NCBI GenBank assembly: GCA_900073065.1
Contig: FJOG01000001.1
Location: 1,644,439 to 1,708,438, forward strand
Origin: Phialocephala subalpina
Taxonomy: Eukaryota; Ascomycota; Leotiomycetes; Helotiales; Mollisiaceae
Reading direction: 5' to 3'
DNA length: 64,000 nucleotides
Made by a program: the position numbers and the translations under genes. The notes beneath the pieces are model-generated. The model saw only the letters and a list, made by a program, of their open reading frames with translations. It searched no databases and had not been told where the DNA came from. This document shows positions 1,901 through 54,589 of this stretch, in pieces. How positions within the stretch are numbered: position 1 is the stretch's first letter; each line of letters begins with the position of its first letter.

Positions 1901-3446
1901 ATGAATCCAATGGCACAAGCTCTCCGTTCGCGCCAGCTCGGTGTCTACGTCTGCACCGCCTGTTCCCGTCAATTGCGGCGGCAACGAAGAAGCTATGCCG
2001 CCACAGCAGCCAAAACACCAGACATCTATGATGTTGTCTGCATTGGTGGCGGTCCTGCTGGATTGAGTTTGCTTGCTGCTCTACGTATTTCCCCCAAATC
2101 ATACCAAATCATACATCTCACAATAATCAGATTAAATACTGATAAGACAAACAGGCTCATCGCCCGCCACTTCAAACCTCAAAGTCGCTCTCATCGAATC
2201 CCAGGATCTCAGCAAGACTCGCGATTTTACTTTACCGAAAACAGAGTTCTCGAATAGATGTAGCTCCCTCACTCCCTCCTCTGTCAGTTTCCTAGACAGT
2301 ATCGGAGCTTGGAAACTTGTCAAACAAGAAAGGGTACAGCCATATCAGGAAATGCAAGTCTGGGATGGGGTTTCGGGAGCTAGAATCGAATTCGATTGGC
2401 CGGCTGAAGGGAAGGGAAAGACGATTGCTTTCATGAATGAGAATCTCAACTTGACGTCGGGACTATTGAAGAGGGTTGAGGAGTTAGGGGACGTGGAGGT
2501 TTTTGATAAGCAGAGAGTTGCGGATATTGGTTTAGGAGAGGAAACTGAAGAAGGGGATTTGAGGGGATGGCCGATCGTGAAGTTGGATGGGGGGAGGGAG
2601 GTAGTTGCTAGGTTATTGGTGGGAGCGGATGGAGTGAATAGTCCTGTGAGGCAGTTTGCGGGGATCGGATCAAAGGGATGGGATTATGGGAGGTATGGAG
2701 TGGTGGCTACGTTAGAGTTGGAGGGGAGTGGATGGGGAGGTGAAGATTTGAAGACTGCATATCAGAGATTCTTGCCTACGGGGCCGGTGGCTATGCTTCC
2801 TATGCCAGGGAATTATTCGACGTTGGTTTGGTCCACGACTCCGGAGTTGGCAGCAGTTTTGAAGAGCTTGAGTCCGAAGGACTTTATAGCTATGGTCAAT
2901 GCTGCGTTTAGGTTGTCGCCGACGGATCTGGCGTTCTTGCATACGCAGACTGAGGGGCAGGCAGATGAAGTCGCTTGGCGAACACAGCATACGGATTTTG
3001 ATGCTTCAAGGATACCTCAACAAGTCATCGGTGTTCAAGAAGGAAGTGTAGCATCATTTCCTTTAAAGCTTCGACACGCAGATACCTACATCGGCGAACG
3101 CGTAGCACTCGTCGGAGACGCAGCACACACCATCCATCCCCTCGCCGGCCAAGGACTAAATCAAGGACAAGGAGATGTCGAAAGTCTGGTAAAGACTATC
3201 GAATATGCCGTTACTCATGGACAGGATATTGGTGTCCAGATGTCGCTGGAATCATACAATGCGGAGAGATATGCGGCGAACAATATGATGCTTGGTGTCT
3301 GCGATAAGATCCATAAGTTGTATGCGGTGGAGAGCGGACCTCTGGTTCCACTAAGGAGTTTGGGGCTGAGGGCTGTGAATGCGTTGGGTCCGTTGAAGCA
3401 GTTCTTCATGTCGCAGGCTTCGGGCACTGGTGCGAAGATACTATAG
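1901..3446 (+). CDS. COQ6: COQ6-type ubiquinone biosynthesis monooxygenase
   Basis: Two exons, 1901-2084 and 2155-3446, give a 491-residue protein, normal for the family. The product is a flavin monooxygenase that hydroxylates the ubiquinone ring on the matrix face of the mitochondrial inner membrane. The first 35 or so residues are Arg/Ser/Ala-rich with no acidic residues, as in a mitochondrial presequence. Motifs: the FAD-binding GGGPAG just before the intron, DGVNSPVR in the middle (DG motif), and GDAAHTIHPLAGQGLNQG near the C-terminus (second FAD motif). The 70-nt intron splits an Arg codon; exon 2 then reads SSPATSNLKVALIE, the second strand of the FAD fold. The large exon uses many G-rich codons but the frame is clean. 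Confidence 0.93.
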
Positions 3447-5132
3447 AGTTCAGAGTTCACACTATAGTTAAGTGTAATATATTATCATGACACGAGAAAT
3501 ATAAGATATGCATGAGCATTGACGATGGCGGTGGCGACAATCGCGGAGAAAAGATTGCGTTCAGTCGTCTGAATCTCTGTGCTTTTTCAGGGGAAAGGGG
3601 GAAGGAGCGCAAACTGAGCTGATCCCTTGAGATGAATCCTCTTATGCACAGATATATTTGGCATCATTGCGAATTTGCGGACATCATGATCTTCAGGATC
3701 TTCTTGCGTCAATGCAAAAAGGAAGATGTGCATTTCAAAGTCATCTGGGAGAGTTGCTGAGCTGATATTCCAGAGATGAAGAGGGCTTGGTAACCAATCT
3801 ACAGTACATGAACGGACGGAAGTACAGATGGCCATATAAACTTGAGATGTGATAAGACGTAAATAGTTATCATTATGGCCCAGAGACGCAGTAGAGCGGG
3901 CGTCGTGGAGTCGCTCGGAGCCGTCAACGGTGCGGTACTTGGAAGTCCCCTGAAGAACATGTGGTCCATGCCCTTCTCACAGCAAGAGGAAGGTTGGATT
4001 GCTGTCTCAGCGCTCAGACTTGGGCAACGGAACTTCTTCAACTGCGATGCGACTGAGTAATTCACTCAGATGGAGTCTGGCCATGCGAGCGAAACAACCC
4101 ATCCGAAACACTTCTACTTTCTAAACATCCCCAATGGATAGAGTTTGCCTGTCAGCAAGGAGTCTGAACTCAAGTACCAGGCCGGTCCGCCGTCTTCCGC
4201 TAATTGTCTTCATCCGTTGTCTCTGTCTCTGTCTCTGGATGTTGTACGAGTATTCATAAAAACAAAATTATACATAGGTTGACGTGCAGAAGGAAGCACA
4301 CCCACCCTCTCGAGCCTCTCTCACGACTTGTGTATCACTATGCAAGTTGGGCGTTTTATGGTCATCGAGCCCTGCCCTTCCATGCAGCCGTCACCACGAC
4401 ACATCTCAACTCTTCGGACGAACCACACAGCTCAACTCGCAGCTGACTCGACATCGCATCATTCGAACGGCGCGGACCTTAGGAACCTCGGGCAATTGGT
4501 GACGGTGTGGAGAGAACGGCGAGCGCACAGATGTTCTCAGACGTTGGGAAGCAGGAGAAGCGGTGCGTGCAGGGCCCATCATCAACGCCTTCAACCACTG
4601 GCAGGGCAGAGAAACAGAGAATAGCATGGGAGAGTGCAAGGGAGCAGGGAGAGCCACCACCAACGGGACACCACAAGGTCCATCTCATCCATGCACTGGC
4701 CGTGGGTGGCTCGAATGTTTCGTTTCTCTCGGGCACAGGACTGTTGCACCTCCACATTTGGCCGATCTCCATGAGAATTTTCTGCGAGATGAGCCCTCGT
4801 GGGCCTTTTTCATGCTCTCCAACTCACCCAAGCCATGGAGGGGTCTTCCTTCCCCCATTGTCAGATAGGGACCGATGTGCAGCCAGGGTAGTAATATCCC
4901 TTGTAATCCCTAACAAAATGTGTGAATGCACGCTCGAGTGAGAGGGGGCTGGTCAGTGTGGTGAAGGAAAAACGCTGGGACATTATTTGCTTCTTCTTCT
5001 TCTTCTTCTTCTCTTATAACCTCCTCATGCATCCAGAAGGCTTTATGTTTCTGCTCTGTTTTCGATTTCGTGAGATCGGTCTAATTACCCGCGCGCCGTC
5101 TATAATTCGTTTTCTGATCCAGAGCTGCAGCT
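3447..5132. other. intergenic region, no gene recognised
   Basis: About 1.7 kb between COQ6 and the next gene. Several short ORFs overlap on both strands (for example around 4204-4941), but none has a recognisable domain or consistent splice sites. A CTT trinucleotide run lies at about 4990-5012, and the segment is probably a long 5' leader of the downstream gene. Confidence 0.5.
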
Positions 5133-6770
5133 ATGGCCAACTCAAGCTGCCGTCGTCGTTCCTCTCAATATTCTCTCTTTCCAAACTGCACTTCGCCTCC
5201 AACGGAACCCAGTATTATTACAAACAGCAGGAAGTCTCTAAGTCGAAATTCATCAGTATCTTCTGCTTCGTCCGACCGGCCACGGAAGTCTGCAGATCTA
5301 CCCTTGCGAGATTTCAAGACAGCTACAAACGACGAGGACAATAACATTGATCCTACCGAGAACGGCAAACAACAATCGAAACAATCTGACAAGATGGCGC
5401 GGCTAATTTCTCTCAAACCCGAGGCTGTGCCTGCTACGAATTCGAATACAAATCTGCCATCGCCTTCCTTCTTGTCGAAATCCTCCTCAATTACTTCGTT
5501 TATGCCCGAGTCGCCAATTTTGCCAATATCACCAGGCTCACCGATTTCACCAAAATCGCAGCCAAAGTCACAACCACAACCAAAACCAAGACCACAATCG
5601 AGACCACGGCCAGGACCTGTCACTGATCTCACGATATTACCGTATACACAAGACGAGTGGAAGAAAGTCACGGAGGAAGTAAAGATCCTGTACTCGAAAG
5701 GACAATATAAGCACTGCAGTATGCGCTGCAAGCAAATTCTAGACAACATCAAGGACCCAGTAAGTCCCTTCGCCTCCACATCCTCCCAATTCCACCTTTC
5801 TAACAACAAGCAGCACAAGGCCCACTCTCTCTACCAAATCTACCTCTCATTCTTCGCTGCCTCTTCCCTGGAAATGACAGCTAGCACCCTCCACAACCAC
5901 TCCAGCTCCAAACTCCCCCTCTTCCAAGAGTCCCTCTTCTTCTACCTTCAAGCGCAATCTAGTATCGATTTCGTGTCATTCCAACATTCTCACTACTCGA
6001 CCGCTTCGATCACCTCTTCCGTCCGATCATCTGTCGACTCTGTTTTCTCGAGCCCCGCAAACTCGGCGCGTTCATCATTGGCGAGCTCACCCACTGATGA
6101 GATTTTACCTGTTGTTCATAAACGGACTATTTCTGCTTCATCTTCTTTTTCGAGTTTGAATTCGAGAACAACAGGAAGAAGACATAAGAAGAAAGTTTCG
6201 TTTTCGATTGATATCAACCCCTCACCTGCCAACTCGGATTCAGAACCAGAGTTGCCACTGCTACCAAATAGCGCCGCGATCTCATCTTCATTACTGGATT
6301 CTTTCCCCGCTCCACCGAGCCAACTAGATCCTAGCATTACGAGCACAAAAGACCTCCAGATCCAACCTCGCTCTATCTCACCGACTCAAGACAACCTCAG
6401 CGTTTACCTCCTAACCCAATCCCTATCCCGCTACCGCTCTCACCTCCGCGATCTCTCAACCCAACTCCAATACCACATCTCCAGCATCCACTCCCAGATC
6501 TCCCAACTTTCTCAAGTCCGAAAGAGCCGGCGATCAGCACTTCCTAGCCAGTTTACCGGATTCGAGAAACGAGAGTTTGGAGTCGGGTTGGGGATCGGGT
6601 TTGGGAGTATGGGAATGGAAGGTGTAAGTAGAGAAGAAATTCTGAAAGTTGAACTCCAGGAACGGATTCGAAGACTGAAGGAAAATGGGTGGAGGAGGGA
6701 ACGGTTTAATGGTGAACGGTATCAATTACTTTGCGAACGAGCTTTAGGAGAAGCTGCTGGTGGTGTCTAA
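5133..6770 (+). CDS. Ser-rich protein with TPR-like helical segment
   Basis: Unassigned function. An ORF of 545 codons contains a likely 54-nt intron (5760-5813, GTAAGT donor, CAG acceptor). Because 54 is a multiple of three the frame stays open through it; removing it gives 527 residues and joins NIKDP directly to HKAHSLYQIYLSF. The first 165 residues are low-complexity, rich in Ser and Pro, with a Pro/Gln/Lys/Arg run near 140-165. Residues about 170-290 (after splicing) look like paired amphipathic helices (EEVKILYSKGQYKHCSMRCKQIL), as in TPR-type repeats. A second Ser-rich linker follows, then a helical C-terminus with Arg/Glu-rich heptads. It resembles conserved fungal hypothetical proteins rather than any characterised enzyme. 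Confidence 0.75.
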   Translation: MANSSCRRRSSQYSLFPNCTSPPTEPSIITNSRKSLSRNSSVSSASSDRPRKSADLPLRDFKTATNDEDNNIDPTENGKQQSKQSDKMARLISLKPEAVPATNSNTNLPSPSFLSKSSSITSFMPESPILPISPGSPISPKSQPKSQPQPKPRPQSRPRPGPVTDLTILPYTQDEWKKVTEEVKILYSKGQYKHCSMRCKQILDNIKDPVSPFASTSSQFHLSNNKQHKAHSLYQIYLSFFAASSLEMTASTLHNHSSSKLPLFQESLFFYLQAQSSIDFVSFQHSHYSTASITSSVRSSVDSVFSSPANSARSSLASSPTDEILPVVHKRTISASSSFSSLNSRTTGRRHKKKVSFSIDINPSPANSDSEPELPLLPNSAAISSSLLDSFPAPPSQLDPSITSTKDLQIQPRSISPTQDNLSVYLLTQSLSRYRSHLRDLSTQLQYHISSIHSQISQLSQVRKSRRSALPSQFTGFEKREFGVGLGIGFGSMGMEGVSREEILKVELQERIRRLKENGWRRERFNGERYQLLCERALGEAAGGV

Positions 6771-32100: not shown

Positions 32101-33482
32101 ACGACCTTCTGATGTCTTCGTTGCACAGAGCAGTCACGCTCGTACAAGTGAACAACGTTTCCTTGGTTGTCTCCGAGGAGTTGCACCTCGATGTGCTTGG
32201 GCTTGTCCAAGAATCGCTCGACAAAGACAGTGCCGTTGCCGAAGGCAGACTTGGCTTCGGAGGTAGCTCGCTCGAATGAATCCTTCAAGGTTTCCTGCTC
32301 TCGCACAACACGCATACCACGTCCACCACCACCATATGCAGCCTTGATGATGATTGGGAATCCATATTCATCAGTGAATTTCTTCACATCCTCGAACTTC
32401 TCCACAGCGCCTTCAGTGCCAGGAACAACTGGGACACCAGCCTTGATAGCAATTGTTCTCGCAGAGACTTTATCACCTAGGGAATCGATGACTTCGGGAG
32501 AGGGACCGACGAACTAGAAGGTAAAATGTCAGTCATTGTTCTGAAGTTTGCAAAAGTGAAAAGTGAGCATACAATGAGACCAGCCTTCTCAACATTCTTC
32601 GCAAATTCGGCATTTTCAGAGAGGAAACCGTAACCTGCAGAGCTGTTAGAGACCATCTGCCATTGCCCAATGTCGGTTCCTACCAGGGTGAATCATCTGT
32701 ACGCCATGTTGCAGAGCAATCTTGATAATCTCGTCGCCCGCCAAGTACGCCCCAACTGGTGTATATTGTCCACGTTTTCCAATCACATATGCCTCATCCG
32801 CCTCTGCAGTAACACGTTGTGATCAGCAAACAACCTCTTGGCCTCTTGGTGTCTTGGCTGGGGAGCCCGGGAAGGAATAACTGACTCTGTCTGTGCATAC
32901 TAAGTCGGTCCTCATAACTGACAATACATTAGCTCCGTGCATCGCGAATGCTGCCAAGCTTCAATTGGCCGTACCTGAAAACCGCGACGGTCTGCAGAGA
33001 AAGTTCATGTGCCTATTGTTGAGCCCCGAGTCAGCACCTGCATGATTCCCACAATTCCTAAAACCATAATGCAGTGTTGGGAGAGGGAGGAACTTACAGT
33101 ACGGAAGATCTAGAGAGCGGAAAAAGCAATGTCAGTAAGCTCGAACTACCCCGCCAAGCTGATAACGTACACGGATAGCTACACCAGATCAGCTTCCGTG
33201 AATCACAACATTGGGTCCGTAATAGGATGTACTCACGAATTTCTCCTCGATTGGCCACTGTAAGATACGAAGAAACATCGTCAGCCCATCTCACTCTCCA
33301 AATCGAAGCTCAATGAAGCTCTGTTCGTTTGTTGGGGCAGCCGAAAACTCACCGAGAATCTTCTTCAGTTGCATAATGCTCGAATTGGCGCGGATACGGT
33401 GGATAGTCTGAGCCTGTCCTGCATCCTTGCCCTCCTCGAAGACCTCGCTGTAGGCGCCATTGGGGTTATGTTCGTCCGCCAT
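29187..33482 (-). CDS. PYC: pyruvate carboxylase
   Basis: Eleven exons on the minus strand: 33482-33353, 33257-33237, 33178-33171, 33109-33098, 33012-32975, 32917-32886, 32803-32684, 32634-32573, 32513-30770, 30653-29356, 29303-29187. They total 1,194 codons, so 1,193 residues, the length I recall for Aspergillus enzymes. It makes oxaloacetate from pyruvate and bicarbonate, normally in the fungal cytosol. Order: biotin carboxylase (VANRGEI, EDRLSMHRQKADEAYVI, HPGYGFLSEN, the ATP-grasp loop YGGGGRGMR, EINPRIQVEHT); carboxyltransferase (DTTWRDAHQSLLATR, KDMAGVLKP, HVHTHDSAGTG); biotinyl domain with AMKM, the biotinylated Lys near 1154. The N-terminal quarter is cut into very small exons, one of 8 nt; every junction closes the frame onto conserved sequence. 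Confidence 0.97.
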
Positions 33483-35384: not shown

Positions 35385-38300
35385 TCAAAAGCCGGAATAT
35401 CCAGTTGGTTGTGGTGCAAAGCCGTTGGTCTGTGGGAAAGGTGCTGGCGATTGACGTCCAGCTGGACCAGCCGTAATCATTAGTCGATTACCGCCAAGTA
35501 TAGGAGCGTTGTTCTCCTCCTTCTCCTGAGACTTCTCTCGAGCCTTTCGCTCTTCGTTGTCCTTCTTCAAGATGTCAATGGCAGATGCCTGTTGAGCGAG
35601 GTAGTTAATCATGAATGGCATCGTAAAGTCGGTGAGGCCGTGGCGCCAGGAGATCTCCATAACGACATGAATCGGGATGAGGTCGTAGCATGCATAAAGC
35701 ATACCAACATAGCACTCGCGGCTGCCAATATCGACGAACTAGGATATAAAGTTAGCATGTGCATTGGTGAGGGGGTGGAGTGAGCCTACGTATCGGAGCA
35801 ATTCCTCAACAACATCCGACTTGCCAGACATAGCAGCGGTCTCGATAGCATCCTTGAAGAGCTTGTCTTGCTTTGAGAGAGCAATAGACTTCTCCCAACG
35901 CTTGTTCTTGCGGTAGATGTTGGCAGCGATTTGGCGGAAGAAAACTAAGTCGTGGCGCTCCAAGCGTTGAGCAAGCTCGGCAGGGTCGTAGTTGTCATAG
36001 TTCTCAACGGAGTCACGAAGAGTCTTGTAATCCTCCTCCTCGATCAACAGATCATTGATGGCACTGTTGACGGTCTTCTTGTTCTGGGTCTGAACATTAA
36101 GAAGGAACGGCTTGATGAGAGGGATGTTGTCGGACTTCTCGAACATCTTGACGACACGGTTGACATCAATACGAGGGGTCAAGGCTTGCAAGAGATCGGT
36201 CAACAGTGATGGCTGCTCTTGAAGGTAGAAGTTCAAGGCGCGGTAGTAGATCTCCAAGTTGGCGACTTTGATGACGATATCCTTGAATGAGTGGTGCTCC
36301 CAGGCATCGGCCGCACGCTCCATCATGGCGAGAGCTGCATTGTCCCATTCATCGTAATGGCAGTACAAGAAGACCAATTCTGGCCAGAGATGAGCGTCCT
36401 CGGTAGCGCGGATCATCTTGGGGATATTAATTCTGCTCCAGAACAGCTTCAAGTGCTCCATCACACGATCTGGATGGTATTTCGACAAAGCAATACCGAG
36501 CTCAGTAAACATACCCATATGGGCACGCTCTAGACCAAGACCTTGCTCAAGGAGAGCAATGAGCTCGTCGAAGTAACCATTTCGCTCATATTGCTTGACG
36601 AGACCTTGCAATTCCTCAGCATCAACAATCAAGTTCAAGCCGCAAATTTGTGCGAGTCTGAATTCCTTCTTCTCAACACAAGCAGCATTAACTTGCTTCC
36701 AGACCTTGATGTTGTTCGCCTTCCGTGCACACTCAACAGCAGCTTGGTAGTCCTCAAGGTGAACGAGGGTGGTTGCAAGCTTAGCCCAGTTCGAGATGCT
36801 GGTAAAGAAGATCTTGGCAGCTTGGTGGTAACCCTCAGCGTAAGCCTTGTCACCGGATTCCTCGATGTCAGCGACATTGGTGCCTCTAAGGAAGTCTTCC
36901 AATTCGCTGAGCTGATCGGTGCGTGCATAAGCGAAAGCCAAAGCGGTGTCGATGGGAGGTTCCCGCAGAGTCCTGCGTGCCATACGGAGATATTTGATAA
37001 GATCCTCATCCTTGCCAGCATGCGTAGCGATCTCAATGACCTCGTTGTAGTTGCTTGGATCCTCGGCGCGGATGTATGAAGCAATACCATCGCTGACACG
37101 CAGACCGTCCAATTGAGCCTTAGCGACTCTGCTCCAGACCTCAGGCAGCTCAACACGCTCGGCATACTCTTGAGCACGATCAATACTGACAACATGCTCA
37201 ACGAGGACGTTCGCAGCGCTAGTGTGGTCATTGATCTTCTTGTAAACCTCGAATGCTTCCTCAAACAAGCCAACCTCGATACAGATAGAGGCGATGTCTT
37301 GGGAATCATAGGCAGAGAGTTTGTGGATGTAGTCCATGACACGACCTGTTCAGTGTTAGCATACTGATCTGGAAGGAATAGAACTCCGAGAGATTGAGAC
37401 TTACCCTTATCAGCCTTAGTAGCAGTGAGGACCAGGAGGTTCTGTAGATTGGTGTTATCTGAGAACGGGGAAGGCTCTAGGACAATCTTCTCAAGAAGCT
37501 CGATGAGTTCTGCGGGCAAGTCGGCAGCCAAGAACGAAGCGACTGCGACGGAGACCTTGTCGGGCTCGGTCGACTCGGGGACGGCGGTAGAGATGACCTG
37601 ATCAATGACAGAACGACGATGAATGTTGTTGGGGCTGAGAACGAAGGCCCACAGCTCGGGATCAGCTCTGCTGAGGAGGTATCGAGCCTGAGCCTTGAAC
37701 ATGGAGTTTTCGGAGGTGATGCTGATCAACTCTAAGTCGTTTTGACCTTTGGAATAGCAAATGTAGGCTATTTTCGAACAAATGTTAGCGAATACTCTAG
37801 GATACTCAGATAAGTTTGGAACAGTCCAAGTTGAAGACCTCCAGATAGGTCTGGGTAGACCTCAGGCAGATGTGGACCGTCCGGGAGATGCATTCCAAAA
37901 GTACTTTTCCGGTAGGGTAGTCCAGCTGTTAGCAATACTCGAGATCTCTCAGACATGTCTGGAGCAGTCCAGGAGATCCGGTCCAAAAAGTAGTTTTCCG
38001 ATAGAGGAGTCGAGCTAAGAGCTCGACTCCATCAACTTGGCCGCCTTGGCAGCGTTGTTGATGTGCTTCTTCGTCTTCTGGTGAACAGCAAGCTTTGACG
38101 CACAGGTAAAGGCACAGTCACAGAGCTTGCAACAATGTTTCTGTGCAGCTGCCATAACAGCGTTGACCTTGTGCTTCTGGGCCTTGTGGTCCCTAAGATG
38201 TGTCGAATCGCGAAAGGGACGATCACAGATGTCACAGACAAATCTCCGTAGAGCAACATTCTTGTTGACTCTGTTGGTGCCAGCAACCCTATCGAGATGC

Positions 38301-41300
38301 TTTTTGGAGTTGTTGTGAATATTGAGGTCGTTTGAGTTTGCGAAGACAGTACCGCAGGTTTTGCATGCATACTTTCCGGAGGCTTTGATATTGGCTATGG
38401 TCGTGCGGTTGTATTGGAGTCTTTGTGCGGGAGTCAAATTCGCTGACCGGGCTTTGGATTGCTCTCTTCGTCTCTGGTCTATTTCGAGTTCCTTGGCTGC
38501 CATTTGCTCAGGAGTGAGGTTCTCGAAATCGTCTCGAACGGATTCAGCTAAGGCGGAATGAGAGCAACATCCATCATACTCCATATCTTCGAGAGACCAA
38601 GGGCAAAGATGAGGCATGCCGTAGTCTTTTGTACGAGAACACATAGCCCAGAGCACAATGGATAAGGTAGCTTCGATAGCGAGAAAGAGGGCGCGGATTG
38701 CAAATCTCTTTCCAGGAGTTGGGATAGGAGCCCAGCATAGAAGCCCTTTGTGCACGATTGTATAACCGTCGTCCAGAGCGCGCTGAACGTACAGAGGTGG
38801 AAGTGTGTTGGTGTCGTAGTCCACGAATCGTGCAGCTACACCACGAGCGCTGTGCGTACCAGAGCCGATGTAGATCTTAGGTCGGCAACCCGGTTGCTCG
38901 AGCACAAGCAAGTACACACCCCAAAGCTTCTTGACTTCAGTTGGTAAGATCTTGAAATAGGCGATTGTAGGGGGAGTAGAGGCCTGTAAGACATCCAGAA
39001 GGCCAGGAGCAAAGAGACAAAGAGAGTCTGAGCAGAGCTGCTGTAGTATGTCTTGCGTAGCAAGGATCATGGCGAAGACAGGGTTTTTAAGCTTGGCAGG
39101 CGTGAAACTGACGAAACACCAGACTAGCCCCACCATGTACGCGAGGATATCGGAGGCCTCGGAAGCCATCGTGGACCACGATGACAGCTATATCGAAAGT
39201 ACTTTTCAGAACACAGGCTGTTTGGAAAAGTCTGCCAGAGCTCTCTGACCAGACACCACAACACCTGCCATTGAGATCAGTACTTGGATGCCAGATGGGA
39301 GATCTGGAGTCCGCATACCGAACAGAACCAAGCTTTTAACTGAGCTCAGCTCAGTTATCTCTGGCAGCTGTGCGAAAAGTACTTTTCCAGACAGGAAATT
39401 CAGAGAGTTCTGCCAGAGCTCTCTGACCAGACACTGCGACACCTGCCATTGAGATCAGTACATGGATTCCAGGAAGGAGATCTGGAGTTGACATACCTAG
39501 CAGTTCTCAGACGCGTCTGTTGACTTTAGTCGACACTGGTAGGCAGCAGTGCTTCAGAAGTACTTTCGAGCAGGTAAGCTGTTCAGAGAATCGGGGCCTT
39601 GATTGTTGTGTTGATGCTACAACATGAAGGAGAAGGAGAAGGAGTCCTTCATGTTGTTGACGCGTCCAGGGCTCCTGGGGAAGGTACGTTCTTACCCAGA
39701 TTCAGGGGAAGGTCCATTCTTACCCAAGTCCAGGAAGGTCCAGTCTTACCCAAGTCCAGAGGAAGGAAGTCGGAATGAAAAGGGAAGGTCTTACCAAGGT
39801 TCGGGTCTCTTGATTGGCAGTAGCGACCGACGATAAGAGTATCATATTGGTCGTTCTCCTTCAAAAACTTCTCTGGATTATTGTTAGAGTCGATATAGAT
39901 CTTGGCCAATGCATTGTAGACAGCCTTATACCCGAGATATCGAAGTTAGCATTCCTATTTCAAGCACTTCAAGAGGAGAGGAGAGAATGTTTCAGGAGTC
40001 TTGGGACATTCAGGACTCTCGAAACAAAGAGGAAAGGGGAATATTGCTCGAAGAAGGTGGGCTTACCTGTTGTTGGTTGCCGGCTTGAAGAGTAGCCTCT
40101 AAGAATGGCAAGAGAAGCTTCAATCGGTTGCGTGACTCAACCTCACTGACAAGCTCATCAATTGGAATGGATGCGGGATTGACGCTTGACAGAAGGTTCT
40201 TGATGATGCTTTCATCACAGTCAACGTCGAGGAGACCACCGATAACGGCTGGCGTACGAGCCGGGTTGACTCGTTGGACATAAACCTCAATGGACTTGAA
40301 CTGTTGGTTTTGGTAGAGGTAAAGCACCAAGTCGTGGATCATGTTGAAGCGATCGCAGACAATGATGAGCGGTAGCTGCTCGGTCAACTTGGCTTCCTTG
40401 AGGAAGTTTTTGACTTTTTCGGCATTGTAACTGCGAGGAAGTCAGTAATTGCTTCATTCAAGAGGTTCCTAGACATATTGACTTACTGGTTAGAGTCGCG
40501 GCAGATACGCTCAACTTCCGTGAACTGACCCATCGAGACCGCAGCCTGGATGTACTTGAAATTAACATCCTGATCCTCGCTGAGATTGACGATGCTTCCG
40601 AGATAGTAGAACAAGCCTTCAGAGGTGTGATATTTCTCCAAGAGATCAATGATTCGAGTTGAGCCGAGAAGATCCGAGTACTTGGTAGCAATCTGGACAA
40701 CAGCCGCAAGGTTTTGTCGGATGTTGGTCTTCAACATAGCATCGAGGCAGTCCAACGATTGCTCCAGGGACAAGCGACCGAAGAAGTTGGTAAGCCAGTC
40801 CTGGCTGAAGTTGGGAGTGGCGACAATATTGACGATGACACGCTTGACAGCCTCGGGGTCGTCGTAATGCTCCAGCGCTCGCTGCGACAAACCAGCCTGC
40901 TCGCACAATTGTGCAATACGAGCTCTATCGTAGTGGGAGAACATATCATTACCGAGAATGGCATCAGCAACTTGGGGAGCATTGATGAGGTTCATCTCAA
41001 GCAAACGAGTTTGCAAATGTCCTTGTTCTGGCCTGTTGTCCTTGAGAGCATCAAGAAGGAAAGCTGTGGCAGGTTGAACCATACCCTGGGCTTGGAAGAC
41101 ATCAACAACGCGCTCAATGTCAACAAGAGAACCCCCTTCATGGTTTGCCAATTGAGTAGCGAACTCAGCACCTTTCTGTAAAGTAATTAGTAAGAAATGT
41201 TCCAAAAATTCGAAGAGCACACGAGGCTCCCAATATATCTTGAAAGCAAAGGCAAAAAACAGCTTACCTCTGGGTTGATACGGACGATGTTTTGCAATAA

Positions 41301-43118
41301 CACAACATAGTCTGGTTGGTATCCAACTTGTTGGGCGTAAGGCAGGATCTTGTCAAACTGCCCAGTCTCTGCAAAGGCAGCGACAACCTTACCAGGAACA
41401 CCAGAGCGGAGGTAGATACTAAGAGCAAGGTTCAAGTCATGTGGGCGCACAACATCACCAAGCTCTTCAGAGCAGTCGAGCTTGTTCTCCTTCATCCACT
41501 TCTCGAGCAGGTGCTTTCGGTTCTGTGCAAGAACAGGTCTGACAAGCTCGAGGGTCTCGTGCTTGTTCAGGCTTCCCTTGTCAAGAAGCATACCAAAATA
41601 CTGGAGAATAACGGACAACTGTCCTGGTGCTGCAGGCAATGCCTTGAATCGTTCGATGGTCTGAGGTGTTCGGAGGAAGCCACGAGGTGAGTTTGCGGCG
41701 ATCTTAGCAGCCTCAGCATAGTTCCCGGTGCTCAGCAATTGGTCGAATTGTCCTGCGTACAAGTTGTCTGCACCTGGTAGTCCAGCCCGTGATGCAAGCT
41801 TAACAGCAAGACTTGAGTTCGCAGGGTTCTGGAGGAGGTATGGGATAACAGTATTCTCATCAACAGACACTGATAGAACCTGACCCTTGCGATTAACACC
41901 CACGAGTCCTGCAGACTCCGAGTCTGGAGCTGTGATGAAGATTGTCTCGCTCGAGATTCGGTTCATGAATATGCAGGTACCAGTCTCCAAATCGTATAGG
42001 TGGATGAAACCGTATTTTGTGACCAGATAAATAATGCTGTATCGCTGCGAGACTTGCATAGCAACTGGAAAATCATTAACTGCCTCAGCCGGGAAGTAAA
42101 CATCCACAGCCTTCTTGGGGAAGACAGGATTTGTTTGTTGGTGGTCCACCTCAACAATGTGTAGCTTGGCTCCAGTTGCGGTACGGACGGAGAAGGTGAA
42201 GACCTTCGTATCTGCCGGAGCTCCCTCGAGTCGTAATGTGCCAAAGGCAGCGGCGTGTCCCTCGATGGCTTGGCTGATGCCTCGGTCTCGAGAATATAGT
42301 TGCATAGCACCAACGACTCGTCCTTGCTGTTGTGTGATCCCAACCACGACCATCCACTTGCCATCGTCGCTGACACGGTAGTTGATGATTTGACATCCCT
42401 TGACAACCTATTAGCTATCATTCACCTTTGTGTCTGCTATTGTACTCACTGCAAGATTCTGGTTTCTCTTGAAGATCTCAACTGGCGAAGCTTGATTTGG
42501 ATCAAAGACATCCCAGTGGTAGACTGCTGAATCTGTGACCAAACCTAACGATGTCTCGCTGAACCACTTCCAGAATACCACGTCCTCGTTCATTGTCGCC
42601 GACTTCAGCTTTTGCTTCTGGCCCAAGTCGAATATCTGGAGTGTTCGGGATTGTGCCTTGAGAGCAATAATCTGTCTTGTCCAGTGCATGATAGCACTAT
42701 CGGCCTTGATGGGTCTGCGAATGACATTATTGCCGTTCTTCAGGTCGACGATAACGACTTCGGGTTGTGAGGCTTCATCTTTCTTCTCTCGGACGCAAAT
42801 GAAGGAATCGGATTCGAGGGTCTGCGATCAGTATTAGCTATGCCGGCAGAAACTTCGGAACTTGAAGCTGAGCACGTACACATGAGTTGAATCCAATTGA
42901 TGCTGGCTGCGATGATGCATGTTAGCTCAATGTCGTTATGGTTGTTGCCTGCCCTGTCAACAGCTCGAGGAGCTTGGGATTCCCGGGAACGTACCAGAAT
43001 ACCGGAGGAGGTCAACTAGAGGGCATTGTCAGTTGCATTCTAATATCGTGAAGTGGAGGCAGAGCTTTTCGCATACCTGGAGCAGCTCCGTAAACTTGAT
43101 GGGGAGAGCAGGCGCCAT
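35385..43118 (-). CDS. CHC1: clathrin heavy chain
   Basis: Eleven exons on the minus strand: 43118-43077, 43015-42995, 42906-42880, 42821-42450, 42407-41268, 41175-40487, 40430-40067, 39924-39795, 37767-37405, 37345-35790, 35738-35385, giving 1,685 residues. It forms the three-legged scaffold of coated vesicles. The N-terminus [14 protein letters not shown] and the beta-propeller ([33 protein letters not shown]) are followed by the alpha-solenoid of clathrin repeats ([58 protein letters not shown]) and the trimerisation end, with a QPTGYSGF tail. Exons 2 and 3 are only 21 and 27 nt. Exon 5 could start 9 nt later (AAG acceptor at 42399), giving LAGCQIINY. The intron after exon 8 (39794-37768, inside about residue 929) is 2,027 nt and carries its own nuclease ORF. 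Confidence 0.96.
37897..37997. repeat. palindromic AAAAGTACTTTT motif, 3' intron side
   Basis: A perfect 12-bp palindrome AAAAGTACTTTT at 37897-37908 and a one-base variant (AAAAAGTAGTTTT) starting at 37985 lie downstream of the nuclease ORF. Each is followed by TCCGRTAG. They sit at the end of two loosely similar segments of about 140 bp beginning TTAGC(G)AATACTC. Confidence 0.7.
38006..38030. repeat. perfect 11-bp hairpin over nuclease ORF stop
   Basis: Arms 38006-38016 (GGAGTCGAGCT) and 38020-38030 are exact reverse complements with a 3-nt loop. The nuclease stop codon (38017-38015) lies at the loop edge, so the structure straddles the end of the ORF. It could act as a 3' processing or termination signal, or be an element end. 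Confidence 0.8.
38015..39169 (-). CDS. GIY-YIG nuclease with three C2H2 zinc fingers, nested in clathrin intron
   Basis: A single uninterrupted 384-residue ORF on the same strand as the host gene. Residues 1-80 are hydrophobic or helical and unassigned. The GIY-YIG core follows: GVY at 84-86, YIG at 100-102 (KIYIGSGT), a conserved-type Arg at 114 and a candidate metal-binding Glu at 166 (FLAIEATLS). All signature residues of the superfamily are present, so the nuclease may be active. Residues about 218-262 are charged and helical. Three C2H2 fingers follow: C269/C272/H285/H291, C312/C315/H328/H333 and C347/C350/H363/H369, a plausible DNA-binding module. It resembles intron homing endonucleases in logic (cleavage domain plus separate DNA-binding domain), but those sit in self-splicing introns or inteins; here the intron is spliceosomal. 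Expression would need its own promoter or the clathrin pre-mRNA. Confidence 0.82.
   Translation of the reverse strand: MASEASDILAYMVGLVWCFVSFTPAKLKNPVFAMILATQDILQQLCSDSLCLFAPGLLDVLQASTPPTIAYFKILPTEVKKLWGVYLLVLEQPGCRPKIYIGSGTHSARGVAARFVDYDTNTLPPLYVQRALDDGYTIVHKGLLCWAPIPTPGKRFAIRALFLAIEATLSIVLWAMCSRTKDYGMPHLCPWSLEDMEYDGCCSHSALAESVRDDFENLTPEQMAAKELEIDQRRREQSKARSANLTPAQRLQYNRTTIANIKASGKYACKTCGTVFANSNDLNIHNNSKKHLDRVAGTNRVNKNVALRRFVCDICDRPFRDSTHLRDHKAQKHKVNAVMAAAQKHCCKLCDCAFTCASKLAVHQKTKKHINNAAKAAKLMESSS
39190..39570. repeat. degenerate 178-bp direct repeat with GTACTTTT palindromes
   Basis: GAAAGTACTTTTC at about 39195 and GAAAAGTACTTTTCC at about 39374 open two related segments. Each then contains TGCCAGAGCTCTCTGACC (39233 and 39411), CACCTGCCATTGAGATCAGT and GGAGATCTGGAGT at matching offsets. 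A third, shorter palindrome (GAAGTACTTTC) lies near 39557. The repeats lie just upstream of the nuclease start codon. Confidence 0.8.
39620..39656. repeat. perfect 12-bp hairpin in intron 5' part
   Basis: CAACATGAAGGA at 39620-39631 and its exact reverse complement at 39645-39656 flank a 13-nt GA-rich loop. Together with the hairpin at 38006-38030 it brackets the nuclease ORF and its upstream repeats. Confidence 0.75.
39680..39802 (-). repeat. tandem repeats of the 5' splice site
   Basis: On the minus strand the unit TTGGGTAAGA...GGACCTTCC recurs with 26-28 bp spacing. The real donor (GTAAGA, 39794) is followed by GGGTAAGA copies beginning near 39749, 39724 and 39696. The intron therefore starts with one used and three decoy or alternative donor sites. 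Confidence 0.75.
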
Positions 43119-54469: not shown

Positions 54470-54470
54470 G

Positions 54471-54589
54471 ACATACAACAGTGGGTATTCGCTGGTGGTC
54501 ACCCACCCAACTACTAATCCACCGATAGACTGCTTGTGTATGGCAGAGCGGACGGGATGCCCAGTTCTCAGTCTTCTATGGTCGTATGT
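54471..54589 (-). rRNA. 5S ribosomal RNA (dispersed copy)
   Basis: Read on the minus strand, the 119-nt segment starts ACATACGACCATAG and ends TGTTGTATGT; these termini pair as helix I. The internal control region is intact (GGCATCCCGTCCGCTC and CCATACACAAGC), and the loop E/helix IV region TTAGTAGTTGGGTGGGTGAC and CAGCGAATACC match fungal 5S. The helix II arms AGACTG and CAGTCT pair. A T7 terminator follows at once. Dispersed single 5S genes are usual in filamentous ascomycetes. It appears functional, although it sits next to a decayed gene. Confidence 0.93.

Follow-up and report, generated by a model that had tools for sequence, protein, structure and literature searches.

A GIY-YIG-type nuclease gene nested in a clathrin intron of Phialocephala subalpina: a probable spliceosomal homing intron in a cellular nuclear genome

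Selfish homing inserts in conserved nuclear genes are familiar from the fungal nuclear inteins with homing domains (VMA1, PRP8), whose removal spares the host; these are removed at the protein level and carry a LAGLIDADG nuclease. I-TevI, an intron endonuclease of the GIY-YIG type, has a DNA-binding part of its own, which is other than C2H2 fingers. In the spliceosomal homing introns (shintrons) of mirusviruses, an endonuclease gene from one of four classes, GIY-YIG among them, lies within a spliceosomal intron of a conserved gene, an association that the authors, in the available part of their report, describe as unobserved before their work (PMC12768974). Here we describe a 64,000-nucleotide stretch of the Phialocephala subalpina genome (contig FJOG01000001.1, positions 1,644,439 to 1,708,438; hereafter the window), in which an intron of the clathrin heavy-chain gene holds an intact nuclease open reading frame (ORF). 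On the evidence of sequence, this intron is probably a shintron in a cellular nuclear genome.

The family to which this ORF belongs resembles the mirusvirus shintrons, as the available text presents them, in its nesting within spliceosomal introns of conserved genes, its lack of group I/II features and its preference for certain target genes (PMC12768974). It differs in that the hosts are ascomycete chromosomal housekeeping genes rather than viral genomes, and in the C2H2 fingers attached to the nuclease. With the GIY-YIG homing endonucleases of fungal mitochondrial introns, as far as the consulted text describes them (PMC7487136), and with I-TevI (structure 1mk0), it shares the signature residues, the order of the nuclease domain as judged by model, and a separate DNA-binding module, but it is nuclear, sits in spliceosomal introns and uses C2H2 fingers. 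Nuclear rDNA group I introns with His-Cys homing genes are likewise mobile homing introns in the nuclear DNA of fungi and protists, whereas their location in rDNA, their self-splicing and their nuclease family set them apart (PMC9548176, in its available part). Within the literature searched, which left bioRxiv and most subscription papers outside, homing-type nucleases in spliceosomal introns were reported from mirusviruses only, with no report from a fungal nuclear or other cellular genome.

The clathrin intron and its nested nuclease

The initial annotation had placed an intact 384-codon ORF, on the strand of its host, in a 2,027-nt GT-AG intron of the clathrin heavy-chain gene, and had credited it with GIY-YIG residues and three C2H2 fingers. 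Both claims are confirmed, and the features of the locus are as follows (window coordinates).

37768..39794, minus strand: clathrin heavy-chain intron, the proposed mobile unit; 2,027 nt, phase 1, GTAAGA...TAG, spliceosomal-type
38015..39169, minus strand (that of the host): intact nuclease ORF, 384 codons
38654..38929, minus strand: GIY-YIG-type domain, residues 81-172 (Y86, Y100, R114, E166)
38297..38371, minus strand: C2H2 finger 1, residues 267-291
38171..38242, minus strand: C2H2 finger 2, residues 310-333
38063..38137, minus strand: C2H2 finger 3, residues 345-369 (E 0.71, with conserved C2H2 residues)
38006..38030, minus strand: perfect inverted repeat spanning the stop codon, 11-bp arms, 3-nt loop
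39375..39386, no strand assigned: palindrome AAAAGTACTTTT, upstream of the ORF
39196..39205, no strand assigned: palindrome core AAAGTACTTT, upstream of the ORF
37897..37908, no strand assigned: palindrome AAAAGTACTTTT, downstream of the ORF
37784..37789, minus strand: branch-point-like GCTAAC ahead of the 3' splice site
39679..39766, minus strand: three tandem unit copies, spaced 28 and 26 nt, each with GTAAGA (by eye)
35739..37337, minus strand: clathrin heavy-chain exon downstream of the intron (532 aa; one match in the genome)
41187..42353, minus strand: clathrin heavy-chain exon upstream of the intron (propeller, linker)

Joining the exons at GTAAGA...TAG rebuilds a 14-residue stretch of clathrin (by eye). 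The tandem copies (39679-39794 with the true donor, minus strand) repeat the 5' splice-site region beside the real donor of the intron, and the part of the intron upstream of the ORF also holds a 113-nt direct repeat (39213-39325 and 39391-39503, 81%).

The product of the ORF is a probable DNA-cutting enzyme. Residues Y86, Y100 and E166 are invariant across 90 aligned sequences and R114 is kept in at least 90% of them, and I-TevI ranked first in a structural second look. The Pfam GIY-YIG model gave no match to the window protein up to E 1 and was absent from the best 25 of the 148 families matched by 90 family members; a match to this model is an aid to detection, the superfamily being too divergent for it to serve as a defining trait. 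Foldseek returned no significant match among 155 against PDB or among 368 against BFVD (E 0.001), with phage GIY-YIG proteins at the top of the latter list. Scans for the family produced 32 pattern matches in viral contigs and 29 in prokaryote genomes, and no relatives in either. Kinship with an SLX1-like ORF of the same genome (C14) was considered and rejected, as the profile comparison was insignificant (probability 2.4) and this is a separate gene.

Copies in introns of conserved genes

A protein search of the genome (68 Mb, 119 contigs) gave eight matches that correspond to seven copies, and two further queries led to the same places. All seven copies are intronic and lie in sense to their hosts, in seven different conserved genes: clathrin (CHC), GPI1, DED1, the large chain of carbamoyl-phosphate synthase (CPSase; CPA2), ATP synthase alpha (ATP1), a tricalbin-like SMP/C2 protein (TCB) and TRIP12/UFD4. 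Hosts were named from the flanks by eye and with Pfam, and TRIP12/UFD4 through a PDB search (E 1.1e-47); GPI1 has a Pfam match at 4.9e-19, and the DEAD domain of DED1 is split at profile position 93. The nuclease-bearing introns range from 830 to 2,248 nt. This distribution supports the earlier proposal of a selfish, homing-type nuclease in a spliceosomal intron, and because every copy is sense-oriented, it suggests that the element needs host transcription.

The clathrin and DED1 copies are open and keep the signature residues. In DED1 the nuclease and fingers are open, and the start codon would have to lie in an upstream exon. The other five copies have decayed, being broken or without a signature residue: ATP1 has an open frame without the second signature Tyr, UFD4 lacks the first signature Tyr and is in frame with both host exons, frame changes break the ORF in GPI1 and CPA2, and the TCB copy is truncated. 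Broken copies were entered as their open stretches, with no frame mended. The two open copies would suit old nested host genes, vertically inherited and domesticated for a cellular function. We regard this explanation as very improbable in view of the five impaired copies, the scatter of the copies over the tree and the variation of host gene and site among close relatives described below.

Several features of these loci deserve mention in their own right. In the UFD4 copy (L016, minus strand, oriented 3825-5702), exon, nuclease intron and exon form a single 626-codon open frame, such that the mRNA, if unspliced, would encode a host-nuclease fusion. Small GT-AG-like introns lie just 5' of the nuclease frame in DED1 (L012, minus strand, oriented about 4212-4283) and ATP1 (L014, about 4298-4345), which by eye gives an intron nested in an intron, with similar palindromic pieces. 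A single HSP70 gene of the SSB type holds two remnants, one N-terminal and one C-terminal, each in a different intron. A 793-nt intron of the aconitase gene has two palindrome cores and a weak profile match only (E 0.028), and is possibly an eroded nuclease copy.

Relatives in other fungi occupy similar positions. Database searches gave 243 matches to the window protein and 166 to a second query, in overlapping sets; the best 120 of each were examined, and among the matches listed most were metagenomic. Ten nuclease-host fusions were recognized among 189 proteins.

Aconitase (5): P0157, P0183, P0184, P0188, P0189, from Pleopsidium, Lachnellula, Vermiconidia, Diaporthe and Elasticomyces
CPSase (3): P0185, P0186, P0187, from Neonectria, Monosporascus and Lachnellula
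Pyruvate carboxylase (PYC; 1): P0073, from Cryoendolithus
HSP70 (1): P0180, from Fusarium decemcellulare

We take all ten to be accidental annotation fusions of a nested nuclease with host exons, and they bear out the expectation that homologues elsewhere would also sit in introns of conserved genes, joining the nuclease to four kinds of host. In Monosporascus, the CPSase sequence continues past the nuclease (NPETLSTDFD), and the copy is therefore truly nested. The host half of P0180 has its best match (87%) in the remnant-bearing HSP70 gene of this genome, and starts within about ten codons of remnant intron 2. One search for fused models was restricted to long proteins, where the finding that seven of seven are fused is partly by design; P0068 and P0108 are cpa2 by name and show no host sequence. 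Look-up assigned the relatives to Leotiomycetes, Sordariomycetes, Lecanoromycetes and Eurotiomycetes (the last through P0108, nested by name only), and Cryoendolithus, Vermiconidia and Elasticomyces are presumably Dothideomycetes. Certain targets recur, with aconitase occupied in five fungi, CPSase in three and in this genome, and one CPSase site in two genera.

Filled sites, empty sites and intron signals

The recurrent CPSase site, TIM(I/V)N, is common to Monosporascus (Xylariales by look-up) and Neonectria, which we take to be Hypocreales. Their nucleases are direct sisters (support 0.96) and 72-73% identical, as compared with 82% for the hosts. The Lachnellula CPSase copy, at a different site, joins them in a group of 11 (0.94) with eight unnamed database proteins. 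By contrast with these sisters, copies from two genes of one fungus lie far apart in the tree, both in Lachnellula (46% identical) and in Elasticomyces (53%; CPSase host by name only). For every one of the seven copies in this genome, the nearest tree neighbor is a database protein, and the nearest fellow copy ranks 7th to 130th.

Sites filled in other species are empty here. The CPSase of this genome, one exon of which matches that of Lachnellula subtilissima (Helotiales) with 95.6% identity over 472 residues, is uninterrupted exon both at MIN/YNPET, filled in Neonectria and Monosporascus, and at RLQETG, filled in Lachnellula. PYC, which lies in the window, is uninterrupted at KIALQH, the departure point of the Cryoendolithus model:

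32682..32729, minus strand: pyruvate carboxylase exon, reading IIKIALQHGVQMIHPG through; the Cryoendolithus model leaves into a related nuclease after KIALEH

Because these three sites are read through here, occupancy differs between relatives. Seven nested copies, ten fusions and two CPSase sites in plain exon are at odds with homologues that are always free-standing, syntenic and vertically inherited, the pattern that would have spoken against a homing element.

The introns themselves carry spliceosomal signals: all ten examined are GT..AG with a CTRAY-like sequence near the 3' end (tails read by eye). GIY-YIG enzymes are often tied to group I or II introns, according to the available text of PMC12768974, which would favor such an intron, or a degenerate derivative, as the host of the nuclease. 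Given these signals, together with the lack of any Rfam match at E 1 or better between window positions 37600 and 40000, including any self-splicing core of a group I/II intron, and of any match at gathering in seven other loci, we consider this origin extremely improbable. The sole Rfam gathering match within the window is a 5S rRNA gene at 54470-54589 (minus strand, 78.5 bits).

Terminal inverted repeats (TIR) and target-site duplications (TSD) were sought in the ten introns and none was found, with 2-6 of 15 bases matching between ends and a longest word common to both ends of 4-7 nt; nor was any exon motif of the AG/G kind seen to recur at the insertion sites. Several copies within a genome, in genes unrelated to one another, would be expected of an ordinary DNA transposon or introner that inserts by means of its GIY-YIG nuclease. 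Such an element would fit poorly with the missing TIR and TSD, with genome copies that are not each other's closest relatives, with sister copies at one site in two orders and with seven placements in introns only and in sense only, and we judge it improbable.

Outside the ORF, the CPA2 and GPI1 introns have sequence in common, from 39 nt past the GPI1 5' splice site, as compared with 0 of 20 matches for control pieces. The palindrome AAAAGTACTTTT occurs at 24 places in the genome, versus 4 for the control. Six of these fall within the seven introns (two each in CHC and CPA2, one each in GPI1 and UFD4), on both sides of the ORF in CHC and CPA2, downstream of it in GPI1 and within the frame in UFD4. 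One HSP70 remnant and the aconitase intron have one place each; because HSP70 intron 2 and the aconitase intron were both found through this motif, they are not independent support for it. The remaining 16 places (13 loci) have no convincing relative, and AAAAGTACTTTT was rejected as a universal mark of nuclease introns. One locus (L018 3283-6365; G000 C67, 627782-630864) has four AAAAGTACTTTT in 3.1 kb, next to one ORF with a VWA domain and another that is weakly finger-like, gave no nuclease match and may be another type of element. Of eight introns examined, three (CHC, CPA2 and TCB) have a perfect 10-11 bp hairpin lying across the end of the ORF or next to it, with a different sequence in TCB, and the CHC and DED1 introns have further perfect stems away from the ORF end; simple shuffles give 0.15 stems of at least 9 per 12.7 kb.

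The mobile unit and its life cycle

With respect to what actually moves, the aconitase models weigh against an intron that always travels with its nuclease. In Lachnellula, Diaporthe and Vermiconidia, the point where the model leaves or re-enters the host sequence is at most one codon away from an ordinary intron of this genome (52, 52 and 50 nt), and in Elasticomyces and Pleopsidium the departure lies 3 and 5 codons away from one. Given ordinary introns at positions that are filled elsewhere, the nuclease need not bring the intron along in every case; existing introns may have been entered or replaced, or else the short introns may have been left by decay. The Pleopsidium site was considered as an empty site here and rejected. 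The intron at K/D, where the Lachnellula model enters the nuclease, is 52 nt long with a probable GC-AG donor (L027, about 3224-3275).

These coincidences would be expected if the ORF cassette alone were mobile and entered old, immobile spliceosomal introns, as would the palindrome cores on both sides of the ORF in the CHC, CPA2 and GPI1 introns. We nonetheless find a mobile cassette unlikely, since the likeness of the CPA2 and GPI1 introns reaches beyond the ORF, the two CPSase sites are intron-free here for about 25 codons (by eye), and neither TSD nor TIR marks any of the ten introns.

Our preferred reading remains that of a spliceosomal homing intron. In this model, the GIY-YIG nuclease, guided by its zinc fingers, would cut a nuclease-free allele at a conserved exon site, and repair off the filled allele would copy the nuclease-bearing intron in, with or without a short intron already present. 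Removal of the intron from mRNA by the spliceosome would make insertion into an essential gene cost little, and within conserved genes separate copies would have acquired separate target sites. After a site has been filled, the nuclease would come under relaxed selection and the ORF would decay, leaving shorter introns. The data fit such a cycle, in which a spliceosomal intron homes, becomes fixed and decays, and the element looks like a selfish one that spreads into essential genes while splicing shields it from selection.

A nuclease family in ascomycete chromosomal housekeeping genes would extend spliceosomal homing introns to cells, add to the natural nuclease/zinc-finger proteins on record and account for the ten anomalous models of aconitase, CPSase, pyruvate carboxylase and HSP70 genes. 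It would also offer a testable way in which spliceosomal introns could move and perhaps be gained, a question of long standing. It is possible, though we hold this with far less confidence, that ascomycete nuclei house an old and still active guild of such introns, acting as natural site-specific drives on essential genes, moving between species and decaying to ordinary-looking introns, perhaps including the short introns of aconitase. If so, conserved genes would owe some of their new spliceosomal introns to homing introns.

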